Positions 27,408 to 37,383 of a stretch of DNA of 64,000 bases are shown one piece after another (position 1 is the first letter of the stretch; the number at the start of each line of letters is the position of its first letter). The notes under the pieces are model-generated. The model saw only the letters and a program-made list of their open reading frames with translations, did no database searches and was not told the origin of the DNA. Source of the DNA: Ruania albidiflava DSM 18029 (lineage in GTDB: Bacteria > Actinomycetota > Actinomycetes > Actinomycetales > Beutenbergiaceae); contig NZ_ATWL01000008.1 of assembly GCF_000421225.1 (NCBI RefSeq), forward strand, positions 62,001 to 126,000, in the 5' to 3' direction. A program made the position numbers and the translations under genes.

Positions 27408-27953
27408 ATGGTTACCACAAGAGGGACGGCGGAGGCTCGTCGAGCACAGGCCGTGGACGCAGGGCTGCGCGCGTTCGGCGAGCACGGGTTGACGACGACT
27501 GCAGTGACCCAGGTGGCCAGAGAGGTAGGGCTCTCGCAGCCGTACATCTTTCGGCTGTTCGGCAGCAAGCGAGCCTTCTTCCTTGCCTGCATGGACGAGC
27601 TCGAGGCGCGCGAGCTCGCGGCATTCACTGGTGAGGGTCAGCGGACCGGGGAGTCGTTCGACGAGATGGGGGCGGTGTTCCGGTCGTTGGTCGGGGACGG
27701 GACGCTCGCCGGGTTCTCCATCCAGGCGCTGGCCATCGCACGTCGTGACCCGGAGGTAGCGCAGCGCTATCTGCGCATGCTCGCCACCACGCTGCGGGCG
27801 GTCGGCGAGCGGACCGGCGCCAGCACCGAGGAGCTCACCCTCTTCCTGGCCCGTGGTGTCCTGGTCGTGCAGCTGCAGGCCCTCGGCGTCGACGTGGCGA
27901 AGGTCTCCAGCACGCAGGCGGTCGAATCGCTGCTGGAGCGTGGTGAGGCGTGA
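27408..27953 (+). CDS. TetR-family regulator divergent from the amidohydrolase operon
   Basis: The 181-residue protein has a helix-turn-helix at about residues 15-55 (V-T-Q-V-A-R-E-V-G-L-S-Q-P-Y-I-F-R-L-F-G) and a short all-helical C-terminal domain. The ATG is not preceded by a recognisable ribosome site, and a TACGGT hexamer lies 12 bases before it, so the mRNA may be leaderless, which is common in actinobacteria. Its stop overlaps the start of a GDSL-type esterase (GTGA), so regulator and esterase are co-expressed. It probably controls the divergent amidohydrolase operon. Confidence 0.9.
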   Translation: MVTTRGTAEARRAQAVDAGLRAFGEHGLTTTAVTQVAREVGLSQPYIFRLFGSKRAFFLACMDELEARELAAFTGEGQRTGESFDEMGAVFRSLVGDGTLAGFSIQALAIARRDPEVAQRYLRMLATTLRAVGERTGASTEELTLFLARGVLVVQLQALGVDVAKVSSTQAVESLLERGEA

Positions 27954-28717
27954 ATCCCGTCGCGCTCCTCCTCGCCGCCGCCCAGGGCGCTCGGCTGCGC
28001 CGGGCCACCGAGATTCTCCCGCCGGCCGCTGGCCCGACCGGCGGAGTCGTTCCTGGTCCCGGCGACAGCGCCGCTGTGCGGCTCCTGGTGATCGGAGACT
28101 CCACGGCCGCGGGTGTCGGTGCCGCCAACCACGAGGAGGCCATCGCTGGCTCTCTCGCGCGGCTGGCCGCCGAGGACGTGAGAGCTGCGGTCCAGTGGCG
28201 CGTCATCGCCCAGAGCGGAGCGACCTCGCGCCGCGTGCGCCACTCGCTCCTACCAGAGCTGGAGGGCAGCGACCCCTTCGACCTGGCCGTCGTACTCGTC
28301 GGGGTCAATGACGTGCTGGCCCGCCGTCATCTGGACCAGTGGCAGGAGGACGTGGCCGCCGTGCTCGCCGGGGTCACCGCACGGGCCGGGCTGGTCGTCA
28401 TGACAGGGCTCCCGCCCTTTGACCGGTTCCCGTCGATGCCGCGCACGCTCGGCCGGTACCTGACCGGTCGGGGACGCCGCCTGGACGAGGTCGCAGAACG
28501 GCTCTGTCGGGACGAGGAACAAGTGCTGTGGATCGACTCGGCCGGGCTGCTGGCCGACGATGCAGAGTTCTTCGCCCGTGACGGATTTCACCCGTCGGCC
28601 ACCGGGTACCAGAGGTGGGCGCACGCGATCTGGCAGCGGACCGGCACCGAGCTGGTGCCCCCGGCGGGATTCGAACCCACGACCTTCTGCTCCGGAGGCA
28701 GACGCTCTATCCACTGA
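27950..28717 (+). CDS. SGNH/GDSL hydrolase whose 3' end runs through tRNA-Arg
   Basis: The 255-residue esterase-type protein has all catalytic blocks: G-D-S-T-A-A-G near residue 49 (Ser nucleophile), G-V-N-D near 123 (oxyanion Asn) and D-G-F-H-P near 208 (Asp and His). The GTG overlaps the stop of the upstream TetR gene. The last 20 or so residues (from V-P-P-A-G-F-E-P) are encoded by the reverse strand of the tRNA-Arg gene, and the stop lies inside the tRNA. The catalytic core is complete before that point, so the tail is probably functionally neutral. It suggests the natural end was lost when this DNA was joined to the tRNA. Confidence 0.82.
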   Translation: MNPVALLLAAAQGARLRRATEILPPAAGPTGGVVPGPGDSAAVRLLVIGDSTAAGVGAANHEEAIAGSLARLAAEDVRAAVQWRVIAQSGATSRRVRHSLLPELEGSDPFDLAVVLVGVNDVLARRHLDQWQEDVAAVLAGVTARAGLVVMTGLPPFDRFPSMPRTLGRYLTGRGRRLDEVAERLCRDEEQVLWIDSAGLLADDAEFFARDGFHPSATGYQRWAHAIWQRTGTELVPPAGFEPTTFCSGGRRSIH

Positions 28718-28728
28718 GCTACAGGGGC
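28653..28728 (-). tRNA. tRNA-Arg (anticodon CCG)
   Basis: A complete 76-base tRNA reads on the minus strand: a seven-pair acceptor stem (one G-U), D arm GCTC...GAGC, anticodon stem TCTGC/GCAGA with loop CTCCGGA, T arm GTGGG-TTCGAAT-CCCGC, discriminator A and encoded CCA (28653-28655). The anticodon CCG (28693-28695) reads CGG, a common arginine codon in this GC-rich genome. Its 3' end faces the accessory block at 19-28.6 kb. It lies beside an ArgRS-like gene lacking the catalytic domain. Confidence 0.97.
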
Positions 28729-28860
28729 TTTCGCCGCTGCGTGAGCCTACCAGGGGTCAGGCCCCGGATCGAAATCCGCTCTAGTCGTCGGTTGCGGGGG
28801 CGGCGCCGTAGCATGGCTGACCGTAGTTGCCGCAGCCGTTGTCGACCAGAGGAGGGCGTG

Positions 28861-29646
28861 GTGACGCAGAACCCACCGGAGCAGCCAGGAGGGCAGCAGC
28901 CCTATGGTGCGTCTCAACCGGCGTACGACCCGGCGCAGGGCGGACCGGGCGGTCAGCACGCCTACGGTTCCGGTGGCACCGGCCCGGCCGAGCCGGCAAG
29001 CCCGATGGGGTCCCCGCCCGGCGGGGGCCGCCAGCGCGGCAACGGACCGATCATCGCCGGGATCATCATCGGGGGGCTGGTGGTGCTGGCACTGCTCCTG
29101 TGGGGTGCGATCACCCTGATCGACGGCCGCGACGACACCATCCCGACGCCGACGCCCACCGCGACCGATCCGTCCGACCCGGCCAGTGAGGACTCGTCCG
29201 AGCAGCCCGGCGACCAGCCCGAACCAGAGGGTGGCGAGCTCTACGACCTGCTCACCACCGAGGCCGCCCAGGTGGACATCGACGGAAGCACCTGGACGGT
29301 GCAGGGCAGCTGGGCCGACGCCAGCGAGCTGAGTGCGGAGGCATCGGAGGCCTACACCGCCACCTACACCTCCGACGACGGTGAGCTCACCTTCACCGCT
29401 GTCTCCTTCCCGGACGTGGACGCGGCGGACAGCTACGTCGCCGGCGTCGAGGAGGAGCGGGGCGACCCGGACACCACCGGTCCGGTCTGGCAGGAGGACT
29501 ACGGTCAGGGCCGCGGCAGCCGGATCAGCTACGCCAGTGACGAGGGGTACAGCATCTACTGGTACGACGACACGGCGGTGGTCTACCAGGTGGACGCTGC
29601 CGACCAGGCCACCGCATCCGACTTCTACGGCTCGCTGAGCTTCTGA
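28861..29646 (+). CDS. Single-pass membrane protein with proline-rich N-terminus
   Basis: The 261-residue protein has a Gln/Pro/Gly-rich cytoplasmic N-terminus (1-60), one membrane helix (about 62-85), a Thr/Pro/Ser/Glu-rich stalk (about 90-130) and an external domain of about 130 residues rich in Asp, Tyr and Ser. The layout is typical of actinobacterial cell-envelope proteins of unknown function; I do not recognise the external domain. The GTG at 28861 follows GGAGGG by four bases, and the frame upstream runs into the tRNA and is not translated. It ends five bases before the ArgRS-like gene. Confidence 0.75.
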   Translation: MTQNPPEQPGGQQPYGASQPAYDPAQGGPGGQHAYGSGGTGPAEPASPMGSPPGGGRQRGNGPIIAGIIIGGLVVLALLLWGAITLIDGRDDTIPTPTPTATDPSDPASEDSSEQPGDQPEPEGGELYDLLTTEAAQVDIDGSTWTVQGSWADASELSAEASEAYTATYTSDDGELTFTAVSFPDVDAADSYVAGVEEERGDPDTTGPVWQEDYGQGRGSRISYASDEGYSIYWYDDTAVVYQVDAADQATASDFYGSLSF

Positions 29647-29650
29647 CCCG

Positions 29651-30430
29651 GTGCCCGAGGAGCTCACCGGTCTGCTGCGTGCGTGCGCGCAGGAGCTCGG
29701 CCTGACCCCACCCGAGCAGATCCCGCTGCGCCCGGTCGAACCCCGGTCACCCGGTGACTGGTCCACCGCCCTCGCCCACCAGGTCGCCCCGACCGGGCAG
29801 GGCGCGGCCCGGGTCGCAGCTGCGCTCGCCGACCGGCTCCGCCACCGCGAGGAGGTGGCCGGAGCGCACGCCGACAGTGGTCACCTCACGCTCACCCTGT
29901 CCCTGACCGGTCTGGCCGGCCCGGTGCGGCGCCTGCTACAGGTCCGTGCCGGTGCCACGATGGGGCCCCGGTCGGCGGCGCAGCCTGGTTCGGGCTGCGG
30001 CTGCCCAGCCGAGCTGCACCCGGTGGCCTTCGCCCACGCCCGCTCCCGGAACGTGGCCCGCACCGCCCGCGCGCACGGCGTACGACCGCTGCCAGGCGAC
30101 GAGCTGGAACCCGCCTTGACCGCCGTCGTCGAGGAGCGGACTGCCCGGTACCTGCTGGTGCTGCTCGGGGCCTTCGCCCCCGCCCGGCCCGAGCGGGCTG
30201 CCGGTGGAGCCCAGAGCACCGGTAGCGCGCAGCGCCTCGGACGCAGCATCCTGTTGCGCACGCTGGCCGCCACCTACCAGGACTTCTACACCCGCACCCG
30301 CTGCGCACCGCGCGGCACAGAGCCGGTAACCTCGACCCACCGCACCCATCTGACCCTGACCGAGGCGACGTCAGTGGCGCTGGCCACCGGGCTGTCCGCC
30401 CTCGGCGTCCCCGCCCCGGAGCACCTGTGA
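29651..30430 (+). CDS. ArgRS-like protein with N-terminal and DALR domains but no catalytic domain
   Basis: In this 259-residue protein, residues 1-95 resemble the arginyl-tRNA synthetase N-terminal additional domain (L-A-H-Q-V-A, A-A-A-L-A-D-R-L and H-L-T-L-T-L-S). Residues 120-259 resemble the DALR anticodon-binding domain, with A-F-A-H-A-R-S-R-N-V-A-R, Y-Q-D-F-Y and the ending A-T-G-L-S-A-L-G-V-P-A-P-E-H-L. The class I catalytic domain with HIGH and KMSKS is absent, so it cannot charge tRNA. It occupies the place of argS upstream of lysA in related genomes and lies beside tRNA-Arg. Its stop overlaps the lysA start (GTGA), so it is translated with lysA. It could bind tRNA-Arg; that is inference. 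Confidence 0.85.
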   Translation: MPEELTGLLRACAQELGLTPPEQIPLRPVEPRSPGDWSTALAHQVAPTGQGAARVAAALADRLRHREEVAGAHADSGHLTLTLSLTGLAGPVRRLLQVRAGATMGPRSAAQPGSGCGCPAELHPVAFAHARSRNVARTARAHGVRPLPGDELEPALTAVVEERTARYLLVLLGAFAPARPERAAGGAQSTGSAQRLGRSILLRTLAATYQDFYTRTRCAPRGTEPVTSTHRTHLTLTEATSVALATGLSALGVPAPEHL

Positions 30431-31761
30431 CCCATCCCGAGCAGAGCGGCCTGTGGCCGGAGAACCTCACCGTCGTCGACGGCGTCTGGCGCCTGGGCGG
30501 TGTTCCCCTCACCGAGCTCGCAGAGCAGTTCGGCACCCCGTCCTACCTGCTCGACGTGCCCGGGCTGCGCGCCCGCGCCGCGCGCTACCGTGCCGCGTTC
30601 ACCGAGGCGTTCGCTCCCGCGCCGGCCGAGGTGTACTACGCCGGCAAAGCGTTCCTGTCCATCGCCGTCGCCCGGTGGATGCACGCCGAAGGGCTGCGCA
30701 TCGACACCGCCTCCGGTGGTGAGCTGGCCACCGCACTGGCTGCGGGAGTCCCCGGGGCGGACATCGGTCTGCACGGCAACAACAAGTCCGACGCGGAGAT
30801 CGACCAGGCCCTCCAGGTCGGCGTCGGCCGGATCGTGATCGACTCCCTGGACGAGATCGACCGGGTGCAGGCGCTCGCAGTCGCGCGGGGAGTGCGTGCC
30901 CCGGTGATGGTCCGGGTGACCACCGGCGTGCACGCCGGCGGTCACGAGTTCATCGCCACAGCGCACGAGGACCAGAAGTTCGGCCTCTCCCTGGCCAGCG
31001 GGGCCGCTGCCGAGGCGCTGGCCCGGATCGAGGCGAGCGACCACCTCGACCTGCTCGGGCTGCACTCCCACATCGGCTCCCAGATCCTCGACCCGGCCGG
31101 CTTTGCCGCCGCGGCGCGCGCGCTGCTCGGCCTGCGCGCCGAGCACGCCGAGCGCAGCGGCACCCTGCTCGCCGAGCTGGACCTCGGTGGCGGGTACGGC
31201 ATCGCCTACCTGCCCGGGCAGCACGAGGTGGACATCACCACCCTGGCCCGGTCGCTGGCCCGCACCTGCACCGAGGAGTGCGCACGGCTGGGCACACCGA
31301 TGCCGGCGTTCTCCTTCGAACCGGGCCGGGCGATCATCGGCCCCAGCATGCTCACCCTGTACCGGGTCGGCACCGTGAAGCCGGTCCCGGTCTCGGCCGA
31401 GCTGACCCGCTGGTACGTGTCCGTGGACGGCGGGATGAGCGACAACATCCGACCGGCGCTCTACGACGCGGAGTACCACGCCGCCCTGGTCCGGCCCTCG
31501 GACGCAGGGCCGGTGCAGGCGCGGGTGGTCGGCAAGCACTGCGAGAGCGGAGACATCGTGGTGCACCAGGTCCAGCTGCCCGGCGACGTGCGCACCGGTG
31601 ACCTGCTCGCCGTGCCCGCCACCGGGGCCTACGGGCGCTCGATGGCCAGCCAGTACAACCTGCTGCCGCGACCCGGGGTCGTGGCCGTGGGCGACGGTGC
31701 GCCGCGCGAGATCGTCCGCCGGGAGACCGTCGCGGACATCCTCGCCCTCGACCTCGGCTGA
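30427..31761 (+). CDS. lysA: Diaminopimelate decarboxylase
   Basis: The 444-residue PLP enzyme converts meso-diaminopimelate to L-lysine and CO2, the last step of lysine biosynthesis. Visible features are the PLP lysine segment Y-Y-A-G-K-A-F near residue 72, H-S-H-I-G-S near 213, the glycine-rich phosphate site L-G-G-G-Y-G, E-P-G-R-A near 300 and the G-x-C-E-S-G-D active-site cysteine motif (K-H-C-E-S-G-D) near 372. The GTG start overlaps the upstream gene. The lysA-hom-thrC-thrB order groups aspartate-family amino acid genes. Confidence 0.96.
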   Translation: MTHPEQSGLWPENLTVVDGVWRLGGVPLTELAEQFGTPSYLLDVPGLRARAARYRAAFTEAFAPAPAEVYYAGKAFLSIAVARWMHAEGLRIDTASGGELATALAAGVPGADIGLHGNNKSDAEIDQALQVGVGRIVIDSLDEIDRVQALAVARGVRAPVMVRVTTGVHAGGHEFIATAHEDQKFGLSLASGAAAEALARIEASDHLDLLGLHSHIGSQILDPAGFAAAARALLGLRAEHAERSGTLLAELDLGGGYGIAYLPGQHEVDITTLARSLARTCTEECARLGTPMPAFSFEPGRAIIGPSMLTLYRVGTVKPVPVSAELTRWYVSVDGGMSDNIRPALYDAEYHAALVRPSDAGPVQARVVGKHCESGDIVVHQVQLPGDVRTGDLLAVPATGAYGRSMASQYNLLPRPGVVAVGDGAPREIVRRETVADILALDLG

Positions 31762-31904
31762 CCCTGCCCCAGTGCGCCCACCTGCCCGCGCGGGCGGCGG
31801 CGTCCACTTTGCGGCACAGCCCGAGACGACCAGGCGGCTGCGTCTATTGTGGAGCGGGCGTGGGTGGGACGGCCTGCGCCAGTCTCGACCCCGGAAGGAC
31901 GCCC

Positions 31905-33212
31905 ATGAACGAAGGTGCCCGCATGGCACGCGTAGCAGTGCTCGGCTGCGGCGTGGTCGGCACGGAGGTGGTTCGCTCGCTGGTCGAGCACGCCGACGAG
32001 CTGCACTCCCGCACCGGGACGCGCCTGGACCTGGTGGGCATCGGTGTACGCTCCACAGCCACCCCGCGGGACCCGGTGGTCCCCACCGAGCTGCTCACCG
32101 AGGACCTGCCGGGCCTGGTGCGCCGTGCCGACCTGGTGATCGAGCTGCTCGGCGGGATCGAGCCGGCCCGACAGCTGATCCTGGATGCCGTCGGCTCCGG
32201 CGCCAGCGTGGTCACGGCGAACAAGGCGCTGCTGGCCGCGCACGGACCGCAGCTCTACGAGGCCGCCGACGCCGCCCGCGCCGACCTGTTCTTCGAGGCT
32301 GCTGTCGCCGGTGCGGTGCCGGTGGTCCGCGGGCTGCGCGAGTCGCTCGCCGGCGACCGGATCACCCGCATCCTCGGGATCGTCAACGGCACCACCAACT
32401 ACATCCTTGACGAGATGACCACCTCCGGCCTCGACTTCGAGACCGCACTAGCCCAGGCCCAGCAGCTCGGTTATGCCGAGGCCGACCCCACCGCCGACGT
32501 CCAGGGCCTGGACGCCGCAGCCAAGGCCGCGATCCTCGCCTCGCTGGCGTTCCACTCCCGTACCGCGCTGGCCGATGTGCCGGTCCAGGGGATCCGGGAG
32601 ATCACCCCGGCCGACATCGCCTCGGCCGCCCAGACCGGGCACGTGATCAAGCTGCTCGCGATCGCCGAGGTCGGCCGGCACGGCACTGTGCCCGGCATCG
32701 CGGTGCGGGTGCACCCCGCACTGGTGCCCATCGACCATCCGCTGGCCAGCGTGCGCGGTCCGTACAACGCCGTGTTCGTGGAGGCGGCTGCTGCCGGCAC
32801 GCTCATGTTCTACGGCGCCGGCGCCGGGGGAGTGGCCACCTCCAGCGCCGTGCTCGGGGATGTGGTCGCCGCAGCCCGGAACTTCGTCAACGGTGGCAAG
32901 GCGCCGGCGGAGTCCGCCTACGCCGCGCTGCCCGCGATGCCCGCAGAGGCGGTGCGCACCCGGTACCAGATCCGCATCGAGGTGGCCGACCAGCCTGGTG
33001 TGCTGGCCGAGGTCGCCGCCCTGGTCGCCCGCCGCGGGGTCTCGATCGAGACCGTCCGGCAGGGCGCGCACGCCTCCGCTGACGACGTCGCCGAGCTGGT
33101 GATCGTCACGCACGAGGCGAGCGAGTCCGCTCTGGCTGCGACCGTCGTCGACCTCGATACCCTCGAGGTGATCAAGCGGATCACTTCGATCCTGCGCGTG
33201 GAAGGAAACTGA
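31905..33212 (+). CDS. hom: Homoserine dehydrogenase
   Basis: The 435-residue enzyme reduces aspartate semialdehyde to homoserine with NAD(P)H, the branch point to threonine and methionine. It has an N-terminal nucleotide-binding fold ([10 protein letters not shown]), the N-K-A-L-L-A catalytic segment and the homoserine-binding [10 protein letters not shown] motif. The C-terminal ACT domain (from about residue 350, D-Q-P-G-V-L-A-E-V) gives threonine feedback inhibition in this family. The ATG at 31905 follows GGAAGGA; a second ATG six codons later also has a weak site. A 143-base gap from lysA contains a TATTGT element at 31845-31850, so hom may have its own promoter. Confidence 0.96.
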
Positions 33213-34273
33213 TGGCCCAGCCCTGGCGCGGCGTGATCGCCGAGTACTTCGACCGCCTCCCGTTCACCGACGGCGACCCGGTGGTCACCCTCGGTGAGGG
33301 TGGCACCCCGCTGGTGGCGGCCCCCGCCCTGTCCGCAGCGACCGGCGCCGAGGTCTACCTGAAGGTGGAGGGTGCGAACCCGACCGGGTCGTTCAAGGAC
33401 CGCGGGATGACTGTGGCGATGAGCAAGGTGCTCGGCGAGGGGACCCAGGCTGTGGTCTGCGCCTCTACCGGGAACACCTCCGCCTCTGCCGCGGCCTACG
33501 CCGCCCACGCGGGACTGACCTGCGCGGTGGTGCTCCCGCACGGCAAGATCGCTGCCGGCAAGCTGGCCCAGGCGATCGTGCACGGCGCCCAGCTGCTCGC
33601 CGTGGACGGCAACTTCGACGACTGCCTGCGGATCGTGCGCGAGCTCGCCGAGGCCTACCCGGTCGCCCTGGTGAACTCGGTGAACCCGTTCCGGCTGCAG
33701 GGTCAGAAGACAGCAGCGTTCGAGGTGGTCGACACTCTCGGTGACGCCCCCGACCTGCACGTGCTGCCGGTGGGCAACGCCGGCAACATCTCCGCCTACT
33801 GGATGGGCTACCGAGAGTACGCCACCGACGGTCCGGCCACCCGTACCCCGACGATGTGGGGGGTGCAGGCCGACGGCGCCGCACCGTTGGTCAAGGGCGA
33901 ACCGGTGGAGCACCCGGAGACCGTGGCTACGGCGATCCGGATCGGTAACCCAGCCTCCTGGTCGCTGGCCGTGGCCGCCCGGGACGACTCCGGTGGCCGG
34001 ATCGACTCGGTCACCGACGCCCAGATCTTGGACGCCCAGGCCCTGGTCGCCCGCAGTGTCGGCGTGTTCGTGGAACCGGCATCGGCGGCCAGTGTGGCCG
34101 GTCTGCTCGCTCGCGCCGAGACCGGAGACGTCCCGGCCGGGGCGACGGTGGTGTGCACAGTCACCGGCAACGGGCTCAAGGACACGGCCACCGCGCTGGG
34201 CGACGCCCAGGTGGACCCGGACGTGATCGCCCCGACGACCGCTGACGCCGCCCGCGTGCTCGGTCTGGTCTGA
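33212..34273 (+). CDS. thrC: Threonine synthase
   Basis: The 353-residue PLP enzyme converts O-phosphohomoserine to threonine. It has the PLP-binding lysine segment [11 protein letters not shown] near residue 55, the S-T-G-N-T-S-A-S-A motif, and the glycine-rich phosphate-binding V-G-N-A-G-N-I. The ATG shares one base with the hom stop (TGATG) and has GAAGGA upstream, so it is coupled to hom. thrB follows after one base. Confidence 0.97.
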
Positions 34274-34274
34274 G

Positions 34275-35213
34275 ATGCGTCTGCAGCGGGACGAGGTGAC
34301 CGTCCAGGTCCCGGCCACCAGCGCCAACCTGGGGCCGGGGTTCGACGCGTTCGGGATCGCGCACGCTCTGCACGACGTGGTCACGGTGCGGGCCACCACC
34401 GGTGCCACGCAGGTGCAGGTCACCGGCGAGGGAGCCGGTGAGGTGCCCACCGGCGACGACCATCTGGTGGTGCAGGCGCTGCGGGCCGGGCTGGACCATG
34501 CCGGTGCACCGCAGGCTGGGTTCAGCCTGCACTGCCACAACGCGATCCCGCACGGGCGCGGCCTGGGCTCCAGCGCTGGGGCCGTGGTCGCCGGGCTGCT
34601 CGCCGCCCGTGGACTGATCAGCGAGCCGGAGGCGCTGGACGACGAGGTGGTGCTGGACCTGGCCACCTCGTTCGAGGGACATCCCGACAACGCCGCCCCG
34701 GCGCTCCTGGGCGGCGCCACGGTCGCCTGGATGGAGGGCACGCGGGCGCGTGCAGCCCAGGTCCCGCTGCACCCGGATATCCGCCCGACGGTTCTGGTGC
34801 CCGCCGAGCGGCTACCGACCAAGCGGGCCCGCGCCGCGCTGCCCGCCACGGTCGCGCACGCCGACGCCGCGTTCAATGCCGGGCGTGCCGGGCTGCTCGT
34901 GCTCGCCCTCAGCTCCCGGCCGGACCTGCTGCTGCCGGCGACCGAGGACCGGTTGCACCAGGCGCAGCGAGCGGACGCGATGATGGCCACCGCGGCGCTC
35001 GTGCAGCGACTGCGAGAGGTCGGGGCACCGGCGGTGATCTCCGGGGCGGGACCGACGGCGCTGGTGCTCGTCACACTCACCGAGGCCCAGCGCTCGGTGG
35101 TCGGCGAGACCTGGCACGTGCTCGACCTTGCGGTCGACCTCGACGGCGGACAGGTCAGCGTCCCCGAGCCGGCACAGGTGGTACGCGATGGTAGGCTTGC
35201 TGACGCGCCATGA
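34275..35213 (+). CDS. thrB: Homoserine kinase
   Basis: The 312-residue GHMP-family kinase phosphorylates homoserine for threonine synthase. It has P-A-T-S-A-N-L-G-P-G-F-D at the N-terminus, the ATP-binding glycine-rich H-G-R-G-L-G-S-S-A-G near residue 95, and the C-terminal G-A-G-P-T-A motif near 258. It completes the hom-thrC-thrB operon. A TAGGCT hexamer in its last codons (35192-35197) may be the -10 element of rho. Confidence 0.96.
   Translation: MRLQRDEVTVQVPATSANLGPGFDAFGIAHALHDVVTVRATTGATQVQVTGEGAGEVPTGDDHLVVQALRAGLDHAGAPQAGFSLHCHNAIPHGRGLGSSAGAVVAGLLAARGLISEPEALDDEVVLDLATSFEGHPDNAAPALLGGATVAWMEGTRARAAQVPLHPDIRPTVLVPAERLPTKRARAALPATVAHADAAFNAGRAGLLVLALSSRPDLLLPATEDRLHQAQRADAMMATAALVQRLREVGAPAVISGAGPTALVLVTLTEAQRSVVGETWHVLDLAVDLDGGQVSVPEPAQVVRDGRLADAP

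Positions 35214-35361: not shown

Positions 35362-37383
<2,022 letters not shown>

Follow-up and report, generated by a model that had tools for sequence, protein, structure and literature searches.

Organization of the locus

The window, a stretch of 64,000 nucleotides from Ruania albidiflava DSM 18029, carries directly upstream of lysA a short gene encoding a derivative of arginyl-tRNA synthetase (ArgRS) devoid of the catalytic domain. Its product resembles the Streptomyces protein NrtL and the gene is designated here NrtL-like. The region comprises the following features.

28653..28728, minus strand: tRNA-Arg(CCG) gene, conserved divergent neighbour of the slot before lysA
28858..29646, plus strand: small membrane/lipoprotein-like gene ending 4 bases upstream of the NrtL-like start
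29651..30430, plus strand: NrtL-like gene (catalysis-free ArgRS derivative), GTG start, 259 amino acids, stop included
29651..29962, plus strand: ArgRS-type N-terminal (Add1) domain, residues ~1-104, assigned from PRK01611, domain 1 of 2zue and 3gdz
30032..30427, plus strand: DALR anticodon-binding domain, residues 128-259, assigned from PF05746, 2zue and the fold search
30418..30421, plus strand: GGAG, likely Shine-Dalgarno of lysA as read from the sequence, 5 bases from the GTG at 30427
30427..31761, plus strand: lysA (diaminopimelate decarboxylase), overlapping the NrtL-like gene by 4 bases
31809..35213, plus strand: hom, thrC and thrB, downstream in the same operon as lysA as read from the sequence
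35362-37383: rho, after thrB

The NrtL-like frame (29651..30430, plus strand) has no internal stop. The lysA GTG at 30427 shares 4 bases with its 3' end, as the earlier note had it, and the lysA GGAG is embedded in its C-terminal codons (PEHL). Orthologues of lysA were found in 39/39 genomes compared. The small gene at 28858-29646, between tRNA-Arg and the NrtL-like gene, is lysine-free and has no Pfam match; in sister genera without the NrtL-like gene, its relatives directly adjoin lysA. A GDSL-lipase-like ORF (27950-28717) runs antisense over most of the tRNA-Arg(CCG) gene, whose complement encodes the last ~20 residues of the ORF.

The proximity of tRNA-Arg(CCG) had been put forward as a clue to function. 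The tRNA gene does lie 922 bases away, but on the opposite strand and not specifically next to the window protein. Almost every locus examined has this tRNA gene ahead of the lysA slot, usually with its orientation unchanged; where the slot is empty (L105, L106, L118, L127), the distance from the tRNA to lysA is 140-300 bases. Since the tRNA precedes the lysA slot in relatives, empty slots included, its closeness is uninformative: the arrangement is ancestral synteny without functional weight, and was rejected as evidence for a function.

Domain composition of the protein

Profile searches identify both tRNA-binding regions of ArgRS. DALR_1 (PF05746) covers residues 128-259 with 27.9 bits, above the Pfam cut-off of 22.3. 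The N-terminal domain PF03485 stays under the Pfam threshold in the window protein and passes it in relatives from families f7, f24, f25 and f26. The NCBIfam ArgRS model PRK01611 matches residues 5-87 (E 1.3e-6 for the protein), and a profile built from 13 sequences of the family aligns both domains to Pyrococcus ArgRS 2zue in the PDB (whole-sequence E 8.9e-15). AlphaFold models the protein with confidence (pLDDT 91.0, pTM 0.88). The top 19 PDB matches of this model are all ArgRS (19/19), for the most part by way of DALR; the remaining half is matched by the ArgRS N-domain 3gdz with a TM of 0.68 on the target. The fold search gives weak E-values (best 1.8e-3), which probably reflects that the modelled two-domain arrangement is found in no ArgRS.

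The class I catalytic domain PF00750 has no Pfam match in the window protein, whereas full ArgRS controls match. HxGH is absent and a KMSK signature is impossible because the protein contains no lysine. These results confirm an ArgRS derivative without catalytic domain, the architecture that the earlier note had read from motifs.

In the AlphaFold model the N-domain packs directly on DALR, and PDB matches spanning both domains have a high rmsd; a hold on tRNA identical to that of ArgRS is therefore improbable, and the tRNA is probably not gripped exactly as in the synthetase. The family of the window protein has lost several residues conserved in ArgRS, among them the H of HGD[WY] and, at core column 48, a near-invariant lysine; at the C-terminus, Leu takes the place of Met. 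These replacements also speak against an exact ArgRS-like grip.

Lysine is scarce beyond the window protein, with 0-2 residues in the 13 family members. Over all catalysis-free forms it amounts to 0.27%; the corresponding domains of slot ArgRS contain 1.84%. In f7 the lysine content drops from 3.4% to 0, with other residues of AT-rich codons nearly unchanged, and in f25 most lysines became arginine. Lysine depletion was discarded as a functional signal: it is partly GC drift, and other genes of the window are lysine-free.

Two ArgRS types and descent from the slot enzyme

Actinobacterial ArgRS fall into two types, mutually 25-29% identical. The slot type directly precedes lysA in many families, among them families related to that of Ruania, and the NrtL-like gene does occupy the argS position, as the earlier note had it; type 2 is located elsewhere. 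An argS-lysA cluster was reported in 1993 from Brevibacterium lactofermentum, as cited in PMC7923171 and PMC2744654. The only complete ArgRS of the window genome (L001) is of type 2 and lies away from the slot. The DALR domain of the window protein has 43% identity (81 bits) to slot-type ArgRS, and no BLAST match at 1e-3 links the window protein to L001. Sequence comparison thus supports descent from a displaced operonic slot ArgRS rather than duplication of the resident enzyme. The term paralogue used in the earlier note holds for the kinship with ArgRS, not for a copy of the resident gene.

Among 297 actinobacterial genomes, with ArgRS matches counted at ~E 1e-80 or better, a slot-type catalytic domain was found in 219 and type 2 in 92; both occur in 24 and type 2 only in 68. 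Neither type was found in 10/297, several of these genomes being incomplete. Distribution and sequence similarity of the two types show that type 2 took over tRNA-Arg charging in the window's lineage. In the 24 genomes with both types (G007, G031, G059, G075, G084, G102 and 18 others), these are complete or nearly so; such genomes are likely intermediates preceding loss of the slot catalytic domain. Genome G172, which also has a catalysis-free slot protein, encodes on contig C48 (24105-25079) a full-length-looking ArgRS with only ~24% identity to type 2 and weak similarity to the slot type, possibly a third type.

A full-length argS split by a sequencing or assembly error would also give a short ORF at this place. 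The probability of such an artefact is practically nil, and it was ruled out, nothing having been found in its favour: the same short architecture recurs in 13 genomes of the family, the complete ArgRS is located elsewhere in the genome, and no missing catalytic piece lies nearby in any frame.

Repeated loss of the catalytic domain

The AU test rejects a tree that unites all catalysis-free proteins in one clade (p-AU 6.4e-5). The clearest cases are outside the window's family. In genus g12 of f7 some species have the short form and others a full slot ArgRS, and the short forms group with the ArgRS of their congeners. Protein L024 shares 81% identity over 351 amino acids with L167, a congener's complete ArgRS, but ArgRS residues ~170-387 are missing from L024. 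Within f25, catalysis-free proteins branch from among full-length ArgRS at two or more points. The deletion boundaries differ in other cases, always inside the catalytic region. From these trees and alignments we conclude that the catalysis-free cut-down of slot ArgRS arose several times independently in actinobacteria.

Long branches make the placement of the window's family less certain than that of the f7 and f25 cases. A first tree grouped its proteins with the forms of Streptomyces, f24 and f47; this grouping, with its long branches, was not kept, as constraining NrtL-like proteins with slot ArgRS of the same order gave a tree (p-AU 0.977) better by 45 log-likelihood units than the free search, which was a quick one. 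As far as trees with such long branches go, the window protein probably arose separately from Streptomyces NrtL.

Retention and selection

A catalysis-free protein stands directly before lysA in 57/67 type-2-only genomes in which lysA was located, a count that is not made of independent cases, with Streptomyces and family f24 contributing most. Four more of the 67 have a catalysis-free relative at 10 kb or less from lysA. Where the protein is retained, the gap to lysA is mostly 90-330 bases. In the Streptomyces genus group it is present in 27/27 sampled genomes. In the window's family the gene is present in 8/8 sampled Ruania genomes, in Occultella and in one further genus, and the frame is open in 13/13 members, window included, which extends to the family the intact frame first noticed in the window. 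A contig scan with the window protein alone as query gave no match; the family alignment succeeded. Seven other genera of the family are without the gene (L104-L114); there either the small membrane gene directly adjoins lysA or the interval from the tRNA to lysA is empty. The NrtL-like gene is thus dispensable in the sister genera that lost it altogether. At L117 (G128) a slot ORF of 300 amino acids before lysA is hardly recognisable as ArgRS-derived.

A strong third-position excess marks most close pairs of NrtL-like genes, with dN/dS (NG86) of 0.12-0.40 in frame; frame-shifted and antisense readings give 1.4-4.1. For LysA the value in the closest pairs is 0.06-0.17. Codon patterns show that the NrtL-like gene is still selected as a translated protein, under weaker constraint than LysA. 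For the pair nearest to the window (L033/L034) dN/dS is 0.61, with 0.81 in the N-domain and 0.44 in DALR; the window's own copy is therefore, on the evidence of this pair, under weak constraint, chiefly in DALR. In the congener L036 the usual start codon is absent at the conserved N-terminus, and two other congeners would need CTG as start.

This relaxation within the window's subclade gives weight to the strongest rival of a selected protein, namely an inert, decaying remnant within an essential operon. Its frame would be kept free of stops solely because a stop ahead of lysA would bring polarity or undo translational coupling, and in-frame deletions would be tolerated. The 4-base overlap, the lysA Shine-Dalgarno lying within NrtL-like codons and the equally short gap to the upstream gene are what such a remnant would need, and the loss of the gene in sister genera and of the usual start in L036 fit as well. 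Against decay stand the third-position excess, the low in-frame dN/dS of most close pairs, set beside values far exceeding 1 in shifted frames, and the keeping of both tRNA-binding domains in several independent lineages. So does retention in 57/67 genomes, where the usual gap to lysA leaves no coupling overlap to preserve. We regard the remnant as unlikely overall; its fit is closest for the subclade of the window and poorest for the Streptomyces forms.

Putative function

Parallel cut-downs and their usual retention suggest that the leftover tRNA-binding protein serves a purpose other than tRNA charging. We privilege the hypothesis that the window protein, a displaced slot ArgRS stripped of catalysis and kept under selection, most probably acts as an adaptor or chaperone of tRNA-Arg. 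A complete ArgRS occupied the slot before lysA ancestrally, until a second ArgRS of the other type took over the charging of tRNA-Arg. An in-frame deletion then removed the catalytic domain from the slot gene and spared the domains that in ArgRS contact tRNA, the N-terminal one at the D-loop and DALR at the anticodon. The free-standing product may bind tRNA-Arg and pass it to another protein or shield it from one, having itself no aminoacylation chemistry. A precedent is vertebrate DALRD3, a DALR protein without synthetase motif that binds particular tRNA-Arg species and delivers them to METTL2 for m3C32 (PMC7237682). No domain can be recognised N-terminally in DALRD3, and the likeness is taken as one of mode of action. 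A bolder extension, held tentatively, is that the slot ArgRS has a second, charging-free function in its tRNA-binding domains, so that at every takeover by a second ArgRS selection would strip the core and preserve this function, giving rise in parallel to catalysis-free adaptors at the same operon position.

Yeast Arc1p assists its synthetases in tRNA delivery. By analogy, the window protein could be a trans helper of the resident type-2 ArgRS that improves delivery of tRNA-Arg. The class-wide sample does show the catalysis-free protein co-occurring with a second ArgRS in the absence of a complete slot ArgRS, a pattern already expected from displacement alone, and the second ArgRS does without such a protein in f8, f46 and the sister genera. 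This role is very improbable.

The earlier note had also proposed a regulator of lysine/threonine synthesis. Such a protein would sense tRNA-Arg or bind LysA or Hom and tune the operon in the manner of HisZ with HisG, HisZ being a synthetase paralogue that controls an amino-acid pathway enzyme (PMC9734150). The gene does adjoin lysA-hom-thrC-thrB, and arginine regulation of the argS-lysA cluster is on record for B. lactofermentum as that work is cited (Oguiza 1993). Yet the operon position, which alone was behind the claim, is inherited from argS and tells nothing of a new role, the gene is missing from sister genera that have the same operon, and no binding motif or regulatory site came to light. 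We do not retain this proposal, which has little chance of being correct.

Relation to known proteins and significance

The kind of protein described here already has a name, NrtL (NCBIfam NF045898), and is typical of Streptomyces. NrtL likewise combines an ArgRS N-domain with DALR, lacks the catalytic domain and is encoded before lysA in genomes with a second ArgRS elsewhere. The window protein is shorter and reaches 79.7 bits with the NF045898 model, whose curated cut-off is 340; its gene overlaps lysA, whereas Streptomyces forms end ~110-250 bases before it. It represents a divergent and shorter form, with a probably separate origin. With slot-type ArgRS of the same order it shares descent, the slot and ~40-48% DALR identity, but it lacks PF00750 and the class I signature motifs. 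The resident L001 has both types of tRNA-binding domain in common with it; sequence similarity sets the two apart, as described above.

In the open literature, which leaves most subscription journals outside, neither the repeated origin nor its tie to a second ArgRS was found described. Open-literature searches likewise gave no description of ArgRS replacement in actinobacteria and no paper on the NrtL protein, the matches being the NRTL thermodynamic model and unrelated items.

If the hypothesis is correct, actinobacteria would offer a natural repeated experiment in which a replaced essential enzyme, instead of simply disappearing, is retained in a form trimmed to the parts that bind RNA. An unrecognised role of the tRNA-binding domains of ArgRS would be indicated in these bacteria, Streptomyces included, and Streptomyces would be a genetic system suited to finding that role.
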